A stretch of 13,736 nt of DNA from Bacteroidia bacterium (GTDB taxonomy: Bacteria; Bacteroidota; Bacteroidia; JAESSM01; NORP286). Made by a program: the position numbers and the translations under genes. Below, in pieces: positions 2,799-13,736 of this stretch. The stretch lies in assembly GCA_016764115.1 (NCBI GenBank), contig JAESSM010000101.1, positions 1-13,736 of the forward strand. The letters run 5' to 3'. Below the pieces are notes generated by a model. The model searched no databases. It was not told where the DNA came from and saw only the letters and a program-made list of their open reading frames with translations. Every line of letters begins with the position of its first letter. Position 1 is the stretch's first letter.

Positions 2799-5486
2799 AT
2801 GCCAACATCTTCCAGACATAGGTTATCTGTATATATCCCCATAATTTTGATATTGGTAGTTGTTTATTCATACTATAAAATCGACCAATCAAACTCAAGG
2901 GCAATTGATGTAAAAGTTGCAACAAATAACCCTACTTTTCCAAAAGGCGCAGTTGAATTTGAAAAATTAAAAAGAGCCAATCCTAAAACAGGGAAAATAC
3001 CTGCAGGTGCAAGATGGAAAGCGTATAAACAGTTACTTCATCAAGGAAAAATACTAAAACGAAAATTAAAAAAAACCTCAACCACCAATGGGCCATGGAA
3101 ACCGTTTGATGATTTTTTATCTACGCTTAGTATTTCAAGAATAACTTACGATCCAAATGACACACAAATATTCTATTTCTGTACCGGTGAGGGTTGGTAT
3201 AATGCCGATGCCTCAAGAGGTGCAGGAGTTTGGAAATCTATTGATGGAGGGGTAACATGGTCGCAATTATCTTCAACTGATACATCTACTTTTTATCTAT
3301 GTCAGGACATGAAAGTACATCCTTTAACTAGTGATGTATATGTAGCCACCAGGGAAATTGGTTTACAAAGATCAAAAGATGGAGGTCAAACATGGGAAAA
3401 AGTTTTAGGTAAAGGAACTGGTGCTATCTCCAATAAAGTTGCAGACATTGAATTTACAAAAAATGGAAATTTATTCGTGACAATGGGGTTTGGGTATACT
3501 GATGACTTCACTGATACCGATCCTGATGGAATTTATTATTCTGATAACGGAGATGAAAGTACATGGACCAAGCAAACAGGAGGGTTTCCAACAGATGACA
3601 TACTAAGAATAGAAATAGCTACTGCACCTTCTGATGATAATGTTGTATATGCCATACCATGTAATCCAACAACCGATAAGATCAAAGGCTTTTATAAAAC
3701 AACGAACAAGGGTATTACATGGTTTGAGACAACTAATCCAGGTAATGACTTAAACATGGCAAAAAGACAGGGCTGGTACGACTTAACCCTTGCAGTAGAC
3801 CCTACTGATGCAGATATTGTTGTTGCCGGAGGATTAAACCTATGGAAATCATTAGATGGTGCATCAACATGGATCAAGCTAACTCATGGCACTTATAAAG
3901 ATTCAGGAGGTTTTCAATATGTTCATGTAGACCAGCACCATATTGAATTCATAGATTCTGATACTCTTCTGTTTGGAAATGATGGAGGAATCTGGAAATG
4001 TGATAATTTCCAGGACAGTGTTCCTGTTTTTTATGACCGGAATTTTTCTTACAATGTAACACAATTCTATGCTGCAGCGATTCATCCCGAAGCAGGAAAT
4101 CCCACCATAATTGGTGGTACTCAAGACAATGGTAGTCATATGTCAACAGGTGATGAAATTACTTCATCTCAAAAACTAACTGGAGCAGATGGCTCTTTTT
4201 GCGCTATCAATCATGTGAATGGCGATATAATGTACACCACTACGCAATTCAGAAGAATGTATCGCTTTGTAAATGGAGGGTATGGCAAGTATGACACGAT
4301 CACAAATCCATTTATAACGAACTCTAATGTTCTATTTATTAATCCTATTGAAATAGACCCCATCGACCCTGAAATAATATACCAGGCAACCGATAGAGGG
4401 ATATGGCGATTGAAAAACGCATCTACTGCAGATACTTCTGATTGGATGAAAGCTTCAAGAACCTGGGGAACAATTTCTGCAATTGGTATTGCTACAAGTA
4501 AACCTAATTTAGTTTACTTTGGAAGATCAACAGGAGGAACGGTTTATAGAGTTGAAGGAGCAGATACAACTGATGCCAGCTACAAGCCCATTGACTGCGA
4601 TCTTTCAGACATGCTTCCTACTGGCAACTATACAGCTTCTATTTATGTAAATCCTGAAGATCACAATCATGTAATCGTTACATATTCCAATTATGAGGTT
4701 GAAAGTATCTTCGAAAGTAAAAATGCTTCCGCAGATAGTGCAAAATGGGTAAATATTGAAGGTGATTTGCCCGACCTCCCTGTTAATTGGGCCTTGCTTC
4801 ACCCCAAAAATTCTGAAGTTTGTTATATAGGAACAGATTTAGGAGTTTTCTACACTACTAAAATAGATAGTGTTAACACTGTTTGGCAAACAAGTAATCA
4901 AGGGTTAGCAAATTTGAGGGTCGAAATGCTAAAAATGAGAAGTTCTGATTACACTGTTGTTGCTGCTACACATGGCAGGGGTTTATATACAGGCCAAATC
5001 GATTCTACTGGGAGCCGTTATGAAATTACCTGGCAAGAGCGAGGCCCTAATAATGTTGGAGGAAGAACCAGAACCATTGTACAAGATCCAAATGATCCGT
5101 CAGGACAAACTTATTTGGCCGGAAGTGTTTCCGGTGGATTGTGGAAAACAGAAAATATAAATTACAAAGAAGAGGATTATGATGAGCAACCTGAAGATTC
5201 TATTCCCGATGTGCAAGCCTTTAGTTTGAACTTAAAATCTGCTAATCCATTTACAGATCAACTCGAGATTGAGTACGAAGTTTTGGAAACAGAAACCATT
5301 TCAATTCGAGTTTATAATCTCCAAGGCCAAATAGTTGCAAACATTATTGATGCTGAAACCAAGGAAAAAGGCATTTATTCCCTAAATTGGCCTGCTCCTA
5401 CTGATCTAAGAGTTGGATTATACTTTTTAGAATTCAAGTATGGAGATAAAGAAAATTCAGTTACCAAGATCGTTAAAGGTCGATGA
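2799..5486 (+). CDS. Secreted Asp-box/BNR beta-propeller (VPS10/sortilin-like) protein with T9SS sorting domain
   Basis: The 895-residue product has an N-terminal hydrophobic export segment (about residues 11-25), a charged pro-region (KLKRANPKTGKIPAGARWKAY, written 57-76), a propeller of about 600 residues, and a T9SS C-terminal domain (808-895, with the signature NLQGQ and GLYFLEF). Propeller blades are marked by Asp-boxes: SIDGGVTW (147-154), SKDGGQTW (192-199), TTNKGITW (301-308) and SLDGASTW (351-358), plus a degenerate SDNGDESTW (248-256). ATHGRGLY (723-730) is typical of the last blade. An odd point is RGPNNVGGRTR (748-758) with SVSGGLWKTEN: in relatives that I recall this stands near the N-terminus, right after the pro-region. 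It should be a cell-surface or released protein; glycan or peptide binding is possible, but no catalytic residues could be assigned. The start is the ATG at 2799, chosen because it precedes the export segment; no clear ribosome binding site is visible. Confidence 0.85.
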   Translation: MPTSSRHRLSVYIPIILILVVVYSYYKIDQSNSRAIDVKVATNNPTFPKGAVEFEKLKRANPKTGKIPAGARWKAYKQLLHQGKILKRKLKKTSTTNGPWKPFDDFLSTLSISRITYDPNDTQIFYFCTGEGWYNADASRGAGVWKSIDGGVTWSQLSSTDTSTFYLCQDMKVHPLTSDVYVATREIGLQRSKDGGQTWEKVLGKGTGAISNKVADIEFTKNGNLFVTMGFGYTDDFTDTDPDGIYYSDNGDESTWTKQTGGFPTDDILRIEIATAPSDDNVVYAIPCNPTTDKIKGFYKTTNKGITWFETTNPGNDLNMAKRQGWYDLTLAVDPTDADIVVAGGLNLWKSLDGASTWIKLTHGTYKDSGGFQYVHVDQHHIEFIDSDTLLFGNDGGIWKCDNFQDSVPVFYDRNFSYNVTQFYAAAIHPEAGNPTIIGGTQDNGSHMSTGDEITSSQKLTGADGSFCAINHVNGDIMYTTTQFRRMYRFVNGGYGKYDTITNPFITNSNVLFINPIEIDPIDPEIIYQATDRGIWRLKNASTADTSDWMKASRTWGTISAIGIATSKPNLVYFGRSTGGTVYRVEGADTTDASYKPIDCDLSDMLPTGNYTASIYVNPEDHNHVIVTYSNYEVESIFESKNASADSAKWVNIEGDLPDLPVNWALLHPKNSEVCYIGTDLGVFYTTKIDSVNTVWQTSNQGLANLRVEMLKMRSSDYTVVAATHGRGLYTGQIDSTGSRYEITWQERGPNNVGGRTRTIVQDPNDPSGQTYLAGSVSGGLWKTENINYKEEDYDEQPEDSIPDVQAFSLNLKSANPFTDQLEIEYEVLETETISIRVYNLQGQIVANIIDAETKEKGIYSLNWPAPTDLRVGLYFLEFKYGDKENSVTKIVKGR

Positions 5487-10667: not shown

Positions 10668-11528
10668 TTAATTTAATTCATCTTCAACTAATTCAACAAT
10701 TTCTTGGTACACCAGGCTTCTCTTCTTTTTTATTTTATCTTGAGCAATTACTTCAGCATTGTTATACCCACCAGTATAATATCTCTGAAACCATGGAAGA
10801 ATCGCTACAAGTGCGTCTAACGGAGTATACACCAATGTGATACCTGCACCAATGGCAATAAAACTAGACGTAAGCACCAAAGAATTCAAACCACTGGTAA
10901 TATTTCCGGCATAAACCTGACCTAAGCCAGGTAAAAACATGCTAAGTACCTTGGCAAGGTTTGGCTTTATTTTGTTGATCTTATTATTGGATACAAAAAG
11001 TTCATCTAATTCAGCTAAAAGGTTGGAATCATCTCCTATTATTTTTTGAAAATGCATTTTAGATTTATCAAACTGCTCTAACCCAAAATAGGTAACCCCT
11101 AAATAAAAAATTCTTTTTTTGTTAAAATAACCAGAAAGGTTATCATCCATCCCCAACAATTGCATCAACGCCATTTGAAAATCATGCTTAAAAAGTTTGC
11201 ACGATATTTTGTTGAACATTAGATGGTTTTTTAAACTATCATCATCTGCAACATTGTAAGCAAGTTCATAATAATAACTCGACTTATCAAAATCTTCAAG
11301 ATCAAAATATGCTTTGCCTAATTTGTGATAAACTTCAAAGTTGTACTTTTCCTTTTCATAGTAAAGTACTCTTTGATATGCTTTAGAAGCAATAGTATAT
11401 TCTTGCTCTTGGAATCGGGCATGCGCAAATGCTAGAGTTTGCTGTACTGTTTGTCCAAAAGTAGGAATGCTAAAAGGAAGCAGACTTAATAAGACGATGA
11501 ACTTTTTCAAGTATTTTTTGATTTTCAA
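10668..11528 (-). CDS. TPR-like protein with C-terminal PGxGxxYxG membrane module (second of a tandem pair)
   Basis: The 286-residue product has a signal peptide (KKFIVLLSLLPFSIPTFG, cut before Q26), about 150 residues of helical TPR-like repeats (for example KAYQRVLYYEKEKYNFEVYH, LGKAYFDLEDFDKSSYYYELA, written as separate pieces), and a C-terminal module from about 190 with the motif PGLGQVYAGNITSGL (200-214), two hydrophobic stretches (about 214-232 and 237-246), YYTGGYNNA (250-258) and a basic tail. Such PGxGQxY segments occur in small integral membrane domains of Bacteroidota proteins. No ATG precedes the signal peptide; the start is TTG at 11528, inside the end of the upstream TPR gene (59-nt overlap), so translation is probably coupled. 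It is likely envelope-bound with the TPR part in the periplasm. Function unknown; it shares its C-terminal motif with the upstream gene product. Confidence 0.75.
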   Translation of the reverse strand: MKIKKYLKKFIVLLSLLPFSIPTFGQTVQQTLAFAHARFQEQEYTIASKAYQRVLYYEKEKYNFEVYHKLGKAYFDLEDFDKSSYYYELAYNVADDDSLKNHLMFNKISCKLFKHDFQMALMQLLGMDDNLSGYFNKKRIFYLGVTYFGLEQFDKSKMHFQKIIGDDSNLLAELDELFVSNNKINKIKPNLAKVLSMFLPGLGQVYAGNITSGLNSLVLTSSFIAIGAGITLVYTPLDALVAILPWFQRYYTGGYNNAEVIAQDKIKKKRSLVYQEIVELVEDELN

Positions 11529-12435
11529 GTTGGTTGTACTTTTTTACAGATTTAACAGAACCAACAATATTACCACCATAAAACCCAGCTGCAAGTCCTG
11601 CATAGAACCATCCGTAAACACTTTTTTCCTTTCTAACAATAAATCCTTTATATGCTAAAAATCCTGTAAACCCTGTCATTAACATGGATAACAATCCATC
11701 AAAGTAATAGCCTGTATAAAATTTTCCCGTTCCCGGAATAATAGAAGAAAACAACAATGCTAAAGCTGGGCTTTTGTGTTTAATATTTATACCCGCTTCA
11801 ATTATTTTTTGGTAACCATCAAATAAATGATTTTCCTTATTAGGCAGGGCATCATATAATTCTTTGGCATTATCCCAATCGGACTTAAGCAACAAAATAT
11901 TCAGATCTATATATTCCTTCTGATCATTATCTAATGATGGTATTTGGGTTTTTGCTTGCTCTATTTCTTCAAGATCATTGTGCAGCAATAGCAAGCGAAC
12001 ATACTCCATCCCTACATTATTAGGAATTTGAGAAGTGGAGTTATAAAGCCTTGCAATCCTCTTAATTCCCTTATCATGATCATCAGTTTCTGAGTAAGCT
12101 CTTATTAATGATTTCTTAGCGATGTTATTATCTGGTTCTAGAAAAATAACACGTTCCCATTCCTCAATAGCCAGGTCATACTGCTTGGTTTTCATCAAAT
12201 AATTGGCATACTCTTTTGAACGCGTCAAATCATAAATATCCTGCGCTTCACAAACGTGAAACATCAAGAAAAATAGAATCAGAAATAAACTAAATGGGGT
12301 TGTAAGCAGATAGATTTTAGCTGCGATTACAGGTCGCCTTAAGAATTGAATAACGAATAACGAACAATCGAATAATGAATGTTGAAATAATTTTTCTAAA
12401 AATAATACTTTTACTCCTATTATTGATTTCAACAT
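11470..12435 (-). CDS. TPR-like protein with C-terminal PGxGxxYxG membrane module (first of a tandem pair)
   Basis: The 321-codon frame from ATG 12435 encodes an odd ~44-residue N-terminal stretch, a hydrophobic signal-like core (PFSLFLILFFLMFHV, 47-61) with a possible cleavage C-E-A|Q at 64/65, TPR-like helices (about 68-215, including KTKQYDLAIEEWERVIFLEP), and a membrane module: PGTGKFYTGYYFDGL (234-248), hydrophobic 249-265, YGWFYAGLAAGFYGG (274-288) and a basic tail. The module aligns position by position with that of the next gene product, so the two are probably old paralogues. Residues 16-31 are encoded by one arm of an inverted repeat, and the first codon lies in the other arm. No ATG, GTG or usable TTG occurs between this stretch and the hydrophobic core, so the start is uncertain; a non-canonical internal start is possible. 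It follows yidD after 91 nt. Confidence 0.72.
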   Translation of the reverse strand: MLKSIIGVKVLFLEKLFQHSLFDCSLFVIQFLRRPVIAAKIYLLTTPFSLFLILFFLMFHVCEAQDIYDLTRSKEYANYLMKTKQYDLAIEEWERVIFLEPDNNIAKKSLIRAYSETDDHDKGIKRIARLYNSTSQIPNNVGMEYVRLLLLHNDLEEIEQAKTQIPSLDNDQKEYIDLNILLLKSDWDNAKELYDALPNKENHLFDGYQKIIEAGINIKHKSPALALLFSSIIPGTGKFYTGYYFDGLLSMLMTGFTGFLAYKGFIVRKEKSVYGWFYAGLAAGFYGGNIVGSVKSVKKYNQLENQKILEKVHRLIKSASF

Positions 12436-12469
12436 TCGAAATTCGTTGTTCTACTGTTCAAAATTCAAT
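12345..12469. repeat. Imperfect inverted repeat spanning the start of the first TPR gene
   Basis: The 44-nt left arm (12345-12388) and the reverse complement of the 44-nt right arm (12426-12469) agree at 30 positions without gaps, including a terminal GAATGTTGAAAT, around a 37-nt AT-rich centre. The arms are built from CGAAT/GAATAACGAA-like units, a type of A/T-rich palindromic repeat that I have seen between genes of Bacteroidota. The left arm is read as protein in the 11470-12435 gene. No transposase or target-site duplication is recognisable. Confidence 0.7.
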
Positions 12470-12526
12470 ACTAAAGTTACCTACTAAAAGCGTGGAATTT
12501 CAACCATTCCAAAACTTGAAATTAAA

Positions 12527-12925
12527 CTAAAGAGGATCGTATTGCAGATGAGTTTCGAGGTGTATCGGATACTTGTCACGATAAAAACCATGGCATCTTG
12601 TTAAGCGATCAAAGGTATTAAAAATACCCAAAAAACCTTTCTTTTTAACGGCTTGAATACCGTACTCAGAGCATGATGGTGTAAAAGAACAGGTTTGTCC
12701 ATCCTGCGATGAAATAAAGTTTTTATAGAACAAAAACATGCCTGACAACAAATAAGCCAATTCGTTTGTATTATGTTTTACGTATTTTTTAAAATCAGGT
12801 GTTTCAACTTCTTCCACGAACAAATTCTTTAACTGATAAATTTCTGTTGAAGATTGAGCGTAACTGAAATTAGCGTTGCTACTGAGGAATAGGATAATTG
12901 TAAATATTGTCTTCTTTAAAGTCAT
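12527..12925 (-). CDS. yidD: YidD-family membrane protein insertion efficiency factor with signal peptide and N-terminal extension
   Basis: The C-terminal ~70 residues (61-132) match YidD: FYKNFISSQDGQTCSFTPSCSEYG (in pieces, 66-89), KKGFLGIF and DRLTRCHGF (106-114), with the three family cysteines at 79, 85 and 111. Classical YidD is about 70-90 residues, is tied to the inner side of the cytoplasmic membrane and helps YidC-dependent insertion. This protein has 132 residues, with a clear signal peptide (MTLKKTIFTIILFLSS...SYA|Q, cut at 23/24) and a ~37-residue linker. The YidD domain should therefore face the periplasm. The ATG at 12925 overlaps the end of the LolA-like gene by 47 nt, so the two are surely one operon. 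The rnpA-rpmH-yidC neighbourhood usual for yidD is absent, so a separate function is likely. The family assignment is firm; the role here is not known. Confidence 0.88.
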   Translation of the reverse strand: MTLKKTIFTIILFLSSNANFSYAQSSTEIYQLKNLFVEEVETPDFKKYVKHNTNELAYLLSGMFLFYKNFISSQDGQTCSFTPSCSEYGIQAVKKKGFLGIFNTFDRLTRCHGFYRDKYPIHLETHLQYDPL

Positions 12926-13736
12926 TTACAACTAGATTTTTGAATGTGGTTACTTTATAGTTTTCCTGATCATCACGATAGATGATCTGAACGATCTCCG
13001 TTGGAAAATCCAAACCACTAATATTGGTGTATTTCTTATAGAATTGCTTGCTTATGATCTTACCTTCAGGGTTGAAGAAAACAACGCCATAAAGTTTTCC
13101 CTGTTTGTGTGACATTACAATTTTACCAAGCTTACTTCTTAATAAAGCCTTGGCTTTCCAAGTAGTAATTACCATATTCTCATTATTTCCTTTAATATTA
13201 TTGATATAATCCACTTTCCCACTTTCATTAATATTTATAGATTTATCCTTATAAAAAAGAAGTTCAGAAGTCCCTTGTTCTGTAATTGTTTCACTAACCT
13301 TATCCGGTTTGCCTAGTTCTTCAATTACTTCGTCTTTTGTGATACCTATGTTAATTTCTTTGGTTTTTCCTATACTGCTTTTTTCTGTCTCAACAATTTT
13401 ATAAACTGAGTTATCCAAACCGTAATTGGTTAGATTGCCATTTAAACTCAAATTAAATATAGAGAACCCGACAACATGGGATACCAGGTTTTTGTCCACT
13501 ACTTCTCCATTTGCTATTCTGTACAAAGCGGTATCAGTAGTTAACCATGTTTCTTTTTCAGGAAATTTGAGGTTATAGACTATTTTTTGGGAGTTCTTGT
13601 CAAAATACACCTCCCCCATGGTAAGTTGTTGCTTTCCATCAGCCATTTTTTCCTTGATAGAAAAATCAGCTTTGATCCTAAAAAACTGTTGCCCAAGAGA
13701 AATCTTGGGCAACAGAGCTATAAATAATATAGCTAA
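12879..13736 (-). CDS. LolA-like periplasmic protein with inserted BamE/SmpA-like segment (5' end outside window)
   Basis: The frame is open to the right edge, giving a hydrophobic stretch LAILFIALLPKISLG directly before QQFF: the end of a signal peptide. The gene thus begins outside the window, and the TTG at 13712 is not the start. After cleavage, F-x-I-K-A-D-F-S-I-K-E-K, GEVYFD, KFPEKETWLTTDTALYRI and the late FFNPEGKII...LDFPTEIVQIIY...NYPIP follow the layout of LolA-type lipoprotein carriers (a half barrel binding lipid chains in the periplasm). Between the halves (about 13355-13203) stands NIGITKDEVIEELGKPDKV, then LLFYKDKSI and ESGKVDYI: the helix-turn and strands of the BamE/SmpA/OmlA motif. 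This gene leads the run, overlapping yidD by 47 nt. The LolA-like call rests on pattern, not on a search; sequence identity must be low. Confidence 0.68.
   Translation of the reverse strand, partial: LAILFIALLPKISLGQQFFRIKADFSIKEKMADGKQQLTMGEVYFDKNSQKIVYNLKFPEKETWLTTDTALYRIANGEVVDKNLVSHVVGFSIFNLSLNGNLTNYGLDNSVYKIVETEKSSIGKTKEINIGITKDEVIEELGKPDKVSETITEQGTSELLFYKDKSININESGKVDYINNIKGNNENMVITTWKAKALLRSKLGKIVMSHKQGKLYGVVFFNPEGKIISKQFYKKYTNISGLDFPTEIVQIIYRDDQENYKVTTFKNLVVNDFKEDNIYNYPIPQ

Follow-up and report, generated by a model that had tools for sequence, protein, structure and literature searches.

An exported YidD paralog within a conserved gene unit of Bacteroidota, with a pair of TPR proteins and a Lol-fold protein

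Canonical YidD proteins have no signal peptide and work on the cytoplasmic side, and the canonical yidD gene adjoins rnpA/yidC. Proteins of the Lol type can be dedicated to a single pathway, a precedent being LolA2/LolB2 of F. johnsoniae, which are encoded within the flexirubin locus. The BAM complex of Bacteroidota comprises BamA, BamD, BamG, BamH, BamM and BamP (PMC12611786), and a search of the main text of that F. johnsoniae paper for YidD, TPR and tetratricopeptide finds none of these terms. The words YidD, LolA and tetratricopeptide do occur in the text of PMC13066512, and no description of the unit reported here was found in the open-licence literature; this unit, arranged around an exported YidD paralog, seems to be a component of the cell envelope that has not been described before.

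The window, that is, the whole 13,736-nucleotide stretch analysed here, is one entire contig (C230) of a 2.09 Mb genome that is 69% complete and divided into 244 contigs. The open reading frame list places four genes on its minus strand, with products that are probably exported to judge from their sequences: a Lol-fold protein (A, 12879-13736; from the reading frame, predicted structure and family alignments), a YidD paralog (Y, 12527-12925; from Pfam and NCBIfam matches and alignments) and two TPR proteins (T1, 11470-12435, and its homologous partner T2, 10668-11528; from reading frames, profiles and a tree, and for T1 also a model). These coordinates agree with the initial annotation, which had described four genes on one strand with overlaps of 47 nt and 59 nt and a gap of 91 nt. 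Since the window is the whole contig, A is cut by the contig end and lacks its 5' end. Repeat analysis found a 120-nt imperfect palindrome (12348-12467), able to form a hairpin, which spans part of the Y-T1 gap and part of the T1 frame; the listed start codon of T1 falls within it, so that the real start is uncertain. A second copy, 82% identical, lies on contig 19 of the same genome. Among 155 distinct relatives with a T gene after Y, the Y-T1 gap is zero or an overlap in 113 and reaches at least 91 nt in 5, and the 91 nt of the window is thus unusual.

Y scores above both curated YidD cut-offs, with 61.6 bits against Pfam PF01809 (cut-off 27) and 56.3 bits against NCBIfam TIGR00278 (cut-off 40). 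Its YidD domain occupies residues 59-118, with cysteines at 79, 85 and 111, and its N-terminus, judged from sequence, resembles a signal peptide, in keeping with its earlier description as an exported YidD. The first cysteine lies at a median residue of 78.5 in 44 exported rows versus 27 in 14 canonical rows, the N-terminal hydrophobic core scores 2.97 versus 2.30 in the same rows, and an AxA-like site is present in 39 of the 44; a looser AQ-type pattern separates the groups poorly (40/44 exported, 8/14 canonical). A classical YidD/YidC neighbourhood is ruled out, as neither rnpA nor yidC adjoins Y, and their absence had been correctly noted. Exported YidD is a second copy beside the canonical one, which is also present in all 11 genomes with exported YidD that were counted, the window's own being left out. 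Canonical rows, drawn from 14 of 30 canonical loci, fall on one side of a branch in the YidD tree with a support of only 73, and exported YidD is not treated as a clade. The exported-Y profile matched no solved YidD structure up to E 1.

Contiguity of Y, T1 and T2 holds past close relatives, inside and outside the window's class, so that the test of conserved order set by the initial annotation did not refute the unit. With contiguity defined as the same strand and gaps below 700 nt, the window's own Y being left aside, 147 of 161 distinct exported Y show it, a count that merges both locus sets after removal of their overlap (12 Y of the named set having an exact match in the first). The Y-T-T order is seen in 83 of 94 instances, the window included, and in 77 of 80 named loci. 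Among the named hosts are Emticicia, Marivirga, Cyclobacterium and Lacihabitans. In a survey of neighbour families at 158 loci, equivalent to 147 distinct units by their Y, A stands beside 104 units and a further family, U, beside 75, with the next family beside 19, and neighbours beyond the unit are much less common to the loci. The four-gene unit of the initial annotation therefore survives in part: it is a real conserved unit, with a core of three genes to which A, and U or another family, M, are added in part of the phylum, and the assembly or insertion machine proposed with it is hypothetical. Values of dN/dS were 0.02-0.20 in every computable comparison (29 of 35). The unit went undetected in 28 of the 70 genomes examined and so is not a core function. 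Of the 42 genomes with exported Y, 17 have Y-T-T but none of A, U and M, from which it follows that the core has another or a wider job.

The two TPR proteins hold up as such to different degrees, T2 reaching the cut-off of one TPR model (TPR_8) in the profile scan and T1 giving TPR matches below cut-off. The T1 model resembles the TPR domain of SRP72 (TMt 0.74, E 0.03), with no structural match at E 0.001. T1 carries a C-terminal two-helix hydrophobic hairpin (minus strand, 11482-11706; model helices 194-221 and 223-268), and T2 has its counterpart at approximately residues 190-262 (minus strand, 10743-10961; a conserved block of alignment A3). DUF5683 matches were below cut-off for both (E 0.035 and 0.0099). 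A single branch, with SH-aLRT 99, parts T1 from T2 in a quick tree of 39 rows each from 39 chosen loci, and the pair is therefore old. Across the 70 genomes, near-full-length T at E<1e-20 is present in all 42 with exported Y and in none of the 28 in which exported Y was not detected (best 40.6 bits).

The predicted structure of A (mean pLDDT 88.4) has a Lol fold, by which A would belong to the LolA/LolB superfamily; the best structural neighbour is a DUF1329 protein (4z48, Z 15.8). The earlier LolA-like label thus stands for the predicted fold and not for the sequence, since the Pfam scan gave no LolA match in the window's A, and a classical LolA identity was rejected on that ground. Weak LolA_like matches were found for 9 of 65 A members (best E 0.0039), against 17 for an unrelated family. 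A lipobox pattern, which is a trait of LolB, was seen in 0 of 48 A proteins, the N-terminus of the window's A being incomplete. A likeness to BamE, also proposed, does not extend to the family: it comes from an in-frame insert of 65 residues (120-184; minus strand, 13185-13379), delimited by family alignments, profile scan and model, and private to the window's A. This insert matches DUF3192 at E 6e-4 with 20.2 bits against a cut-off of 26.9, is missing from alignment A6 outside the window's own row (at most one letter there in each of the 64 remaining rows, also in P0002, which is 93-96% identical), and is modelled as a helix (134-141) and strands (146-169) with pLDDT 47-83 per ten-residue block. 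A second copy was not found in the window's incomplete genome.

U and M are families of small exported proteins with two membrane helices, present in several copies. We followed them in 70 genomes grouped according to the loci they carry, in which presence in the chosen genomes is partly a product of selection, absence elsewhere is informative, and counts are not independent as the genomes are related. A was found at E<1e-30 in 25 genomes and in none of the other 45, apart from a 28-bit partial match in G014. M at 110 bits or more was found in all 18 genomes with an A-Y-T-T locus and in none of the other 52 (best 71.4 bits); U at 88 bits or more was found in all six genomes with U-A-Y-T-T, in two with A-Y-T-T (G132 and G287) and in none of the 45 without A, the window's genome giving a weak match of 48.7 bits. 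Hence the 25 genomes with A comprise 18 with M, six with U and that of the window with its weak U, and neither family reaches such strength in the remaining 45. Ten of the 18 M genomes supplied rows to the M profile and four more were known beforehand, leaving G027, G029, G128 and G171 as blind cases, and because so many had supplied rows we slightly lowered our confidence in the explanation given below. Contrasts within families f41, f5, f16 and f23 were concordant, and family f53 was discordant (M in G287, none in G094 and G195). A hold-out of 67 genomes was searched for M only, A and U there being known from loci; M at 94 bits or more appeared in three of eight genomes having an A locus without adjacent U (G199, G182 and G264, the last of which had supplied a profile row through L151) and not in the other five (G017, G402, G382, G094 and G195). 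Three of these five have no small hairpin gene near A, and G402 and G382, which lie outside the window's class, have a different small two-hairpin gene immediately upstream of A. M-like proteins of full length but lower score (84.9 and 78.3 bits) occur in G080 and G078, where exported Y was not detected. A is linked with U or M, with exceptions, and more weakly in the hold-out.

Some U proteins and the majority of M proteins have in common an acidic motif directly after the signal peptide. In its strict form it occurs in 32/87 U, 19/27 M and 0/1058 other exported-like proteins, and in its loose form in 41/87, 23/27 and 15/1058, the pattern having been composed after viewing the sequences and covering less than half of U. 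A lipobox-like pattern is present in 16 of 87 U. Aligned by hhalign, U and M reach E 2e-11 when signal peptides are included and 2e-7 when they are removed; homology is not claimed, as two of 60 controls with shuffled columns gave higher scores. At loci U stands in tandem, and in at least 7 of 16 U-bearing genomes it is distant from the unit. In five of seven pairs U diverged least at synonymous sites, and codon bias across 66 loci gave no consistent difference that would indicate high U expression.

Because they have this motif in common and occur in several copies, U and M may be clients of a machine, and our best explanation, held tentatively and at clearly less than even confidence, is that the window carries the 3' portion of a conserved envelope unit, U-A-Y-T1-T2, encoding a periplasmic machine that handles them. 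T1 and T2 would be anchored in the inner membrane through their C-terminal hairpins, as an obligate pair with TPR solenoids in the periplasm; Y would be a YidD paralog relocated to the periplasmic side, and A a Lol-fold carrier. Together these proteins would receive U or M, recognised through the acidic motif, with A holding their hydrophobic hairpins soluble, and the machine would insert them into, or pass them to, a membrane, either the outer membrane or the outer leaflet of the inner one. A bolder version, which we think quite improbable, is a periplasmic counterpart of the Sec/YidC insertion helpers, in which exported YidD, the obligate T1/T2 pair and the Lol-fold carrier make up a pathway of their own, reading the post-signal motif and delivering small helical-hairpin proteins into the outer membrane, as a Bacteroidota route for alpha-helical outer-membrane proteins.

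The variable copy number and separate copies of U and M suit cargo better than subunits, and this tells against a route for lipids or hydrophobic small molecules to the outer membrane, in which an MMPL/RND pump with T1, T2 and U would load lipid onto A, and U and M would be membrane subunits. Such a route, which may parallel pigment loci with dedicated LolA/LolB pairs, fits the MMPL exporter near some units and is a live alternative, but we rate it somewhat below our own explanation: MMPL is near few units, no lipid biosynthesis gene was among the most frequent neighbour families inspected, and the exported YidD is left unexplained. Less probable again is a static complex in the inner membrane, its output left unspecified, such as an envelope-stress or quality-control sensor, with A as sensor (RseB and MucB have the same fold), T1/T2 as scaffold and U/M and Y as structural subunits; the copy number and spread of U/M tell against it, and visual inspection of frequent neighbours, some of which lack annotation, revealed no family of regulators. 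That unrelated exported genes merely surround a misannotated YidD is highly improbable given the conserved gene order, the T1/T2 phylogeny, the finding of T only alongside exported Y and the low dN/dS, even though an exported protein passing the YidD equivalog model would fit it.

If the unit handles U and M, it would be a pathway for envelope proteins to which the open-licence literature searched offers no counterpart, in which a YidD domain works on the periplasmic side and a Lol-fold protein has protein cargo other than lipoproteins. Even otherwise, exported proteins that pass the YidD equivalog model may often bear the wrong name, and many hypothetical genes, linked to one another, are now testable in cultured Emticicia, Marivirga or Cyclobacterium.

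The BAM complex is a system of envelope assembly in the same phylum. The T hairpins are weakly similar to DUF5683 and TM2, below threshold where a cut-off is shown, and in T1/T2 the hairpin is fused to a probably exported TPR domain; TM2 is also weakly similar to two of three scanned M proteins. Unlike canonical YidD, Y appears to have a signal peptide, and the exported form has about 50 extra residues ahead of the first cysteine; the cysteine pair is invariant across 33 exported rows, the third is kept by most and lost in some relatives, and the flanking genes are A, T1 and T2. LolA3 (9tp6) and LolB (9tpm) of Porphyromonas gingivalis share the predicted Lol fold of A at identities of 10% and 6%, whereas A, unlike LolA/LolB, is tied to an exported YidD and to T1/T2.

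Inspection of the ORF coordinates bore out the four-gene unit of the initial annotation, with all genes on one strand and overlapping as claimed; they encode an exported Lol-fold protein (A), an exported YidD-like protein (Y) and paired exported TPR/hairpin proteins (T1 and T2). The window spans one entire contig of an incomplete genome (2.09 Mb, 69% complete, 244 contigs), and A, the first gene, is therefore truncated. Domain scores identify Y as a YidD, with a signal-like N-terminus in front. A private, in-frame BamE-like insert in A (13185–13379) was not found in the 64 other rows of the alignment of A proteins (A6), including the closest relative found (P0002, 93–96% identical), which suggests that it is either recent or an assembly matter. 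The gap between Y and T1 is spanned by an imperfect palindromic repeat of 120 nt (12348–12467; fold across the gap, z −4.57), within which the listed T1 start codon falls; contig 19 of the same genome carries another copy of this repeat, at 82% identity. Elsewhere in the window, the C-termini encoded at 3–539 and 2799–5486 are candidate type IX secretion sorting domains.

The core order Y-T1-T2 is widely conserved. Among loci selected for having Y, and counting as contiguous genes on the same strand with gaps under 700 nt, 83 of 94 exported-Y instances (91 fetched loci and the window) show it, as 39 YTT, 25 AYTT, 17 UAYTT and 2 UUAYTT, where U is a small exported family with two membrane helices. 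The other 11 comprise 3 AYT, 1 AUYT, 6 Y alone and 1 in which the gene after Y encodes a long TPR protein, probably unrelated. Named loci gave the order in 77 of 80, with one T in the remaining 3 (in two of which the contig stops short); 12 Y are common to both sets, and of the 68 exclusive to the named set 65 have the order. Altogether, it was found for 147 of 161 distinct Y outside the window. In a quick tree of 39 chosen loci, rows from outside the class included, one branch (SH-aLRT 99) splits T1 from T2. Beyond the unit, neighbours are little shared: A occurs in 104 of the 147 distinct units and U in 75, and the next families in 19, 18, 14 and 10. One recurrent neighbour is an exported TPR-like family of about 280–370 aa (21/158 loci, 18/147 distinct; e.g. 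L046, L143, L146), and an MMPL/RND exporter gene lies just upstream of U-A-Y-T1-T2 at L033 (by Pfam), L043, L047, L048 and L054. In family f39, exported YidD stands without T1/T2 at L036, L059 and L062, the last with ribosomal protein genes nearby.

Exported YidD exists beside a canonical type. When the window's genome was compared with 39 others, 38 of these had a canonical-type match of 93 bits or more, while in the remaining one, a 0.5 Mb genome, the match scored 67.4 bits (86 aa). Among the 39, 11 had a second, weaker match (35–66 bits) in a longer frame (135–187 aa), like that of the window. The window's genome shows the long YidD alone, and its missing canonical copy may reflect genome incompleteness. 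Among 296 class genomes, 64 had a match of 80 bits or more, the window's included and one 66-aa partial match (G083) set aside; as some exported copies score lower, this is a lower bound. Long matches also occur outside the class, in families f79, f87 and f97 (among 198 genomes).

Co-occurrence was assessed in 70 genomes: the window's, 18 AYTT, 17 with YTT alone, 6 UAYTT and 28 without detected exported Y. T turned up in 42 genomes and in 0 of these 28, and A in 25 and 0 of 45 others, presence being partly due to selection, and several profiles containing rows from these genomes. M, a second small two-helix family, matched (110 bits or more) in 18/18 AYTT genomes and 0/52 others, 10 of the 18 having given rows to its profile, with 4 more already known and 4 found blind (G027, G029, G128 and G171). 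U (88 bits or more) was found in 6/6 UAYTT genomes, G132 and G287, and in 0/45 without A. At one G128 locus (L235, contig 2), two M genes lie beside what seem to be fragments of Y and T1 and beside two intact, paired T genes.

A hold-out of 67 genomes, searched with the M profile alone, yielded M in G199, G182, G264 and G224, each time at no less than 94 bits; the loci of all four show A. Two of the four, G264 (as L151) and G224 (as L148), matched to those loci by contigs of equal length, had supplied profile rows. Eight hold-out genomes have an A locus without adjacent U, and M occurs in three of the eight. G017, G094 and G195 lacked M and also showed no small hairpin gene near A; in G402 and G382, likewise without M, a different small hairpin gene lies directly upstream of A. 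Full-length M-like proteins also occur in G080 (84.9 bits) and G078 (78.3 bits), both without detected exported Y. Because of these results, the link of A with U or M is strong in the first 70 genomes and moderate in the hold-out. Contig 117 of the window's genome (L230, 3103 bases) carries two complete U-like genes and part of a third, which runs off the contig, together with a gene for an exported TPR-like protein of 372 aa. Since this contig ends inside a U-like gene and the window inside A, and since U sits directly before A in relatives, the two may adjoin, L230 possibly being the missing upstream part of the unit.

We tentatively propose that Y, T1, T2 and A handle the U and M proteins, a reading that we rate clearly below even chances. 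Because many M genomes also fed the M profile, this reading and its boldest extension were each marked down slightly, and the two main rivals, a lipid route and a fixed inner-membrane complex, were each rated slightly higher. Copy number, separate copies and a motif common to U and M, its pattern written after the sequences were seen, make it somewhat more likely that these proteins would be clients, with A as their carrier, than subunits. That A instead carries lipid is a live alternative, given its Lol fold and the MMPL neighbour of some units. The boldest extension of the client proposal, in which exported YidD, T1/T2 and the Lol-fold carrier would form a periplasmic route for alpha-helical outer-membrane proteins, we consider improbable. 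The folds of the unit are already known; its novelty lies in the unit as a whole.
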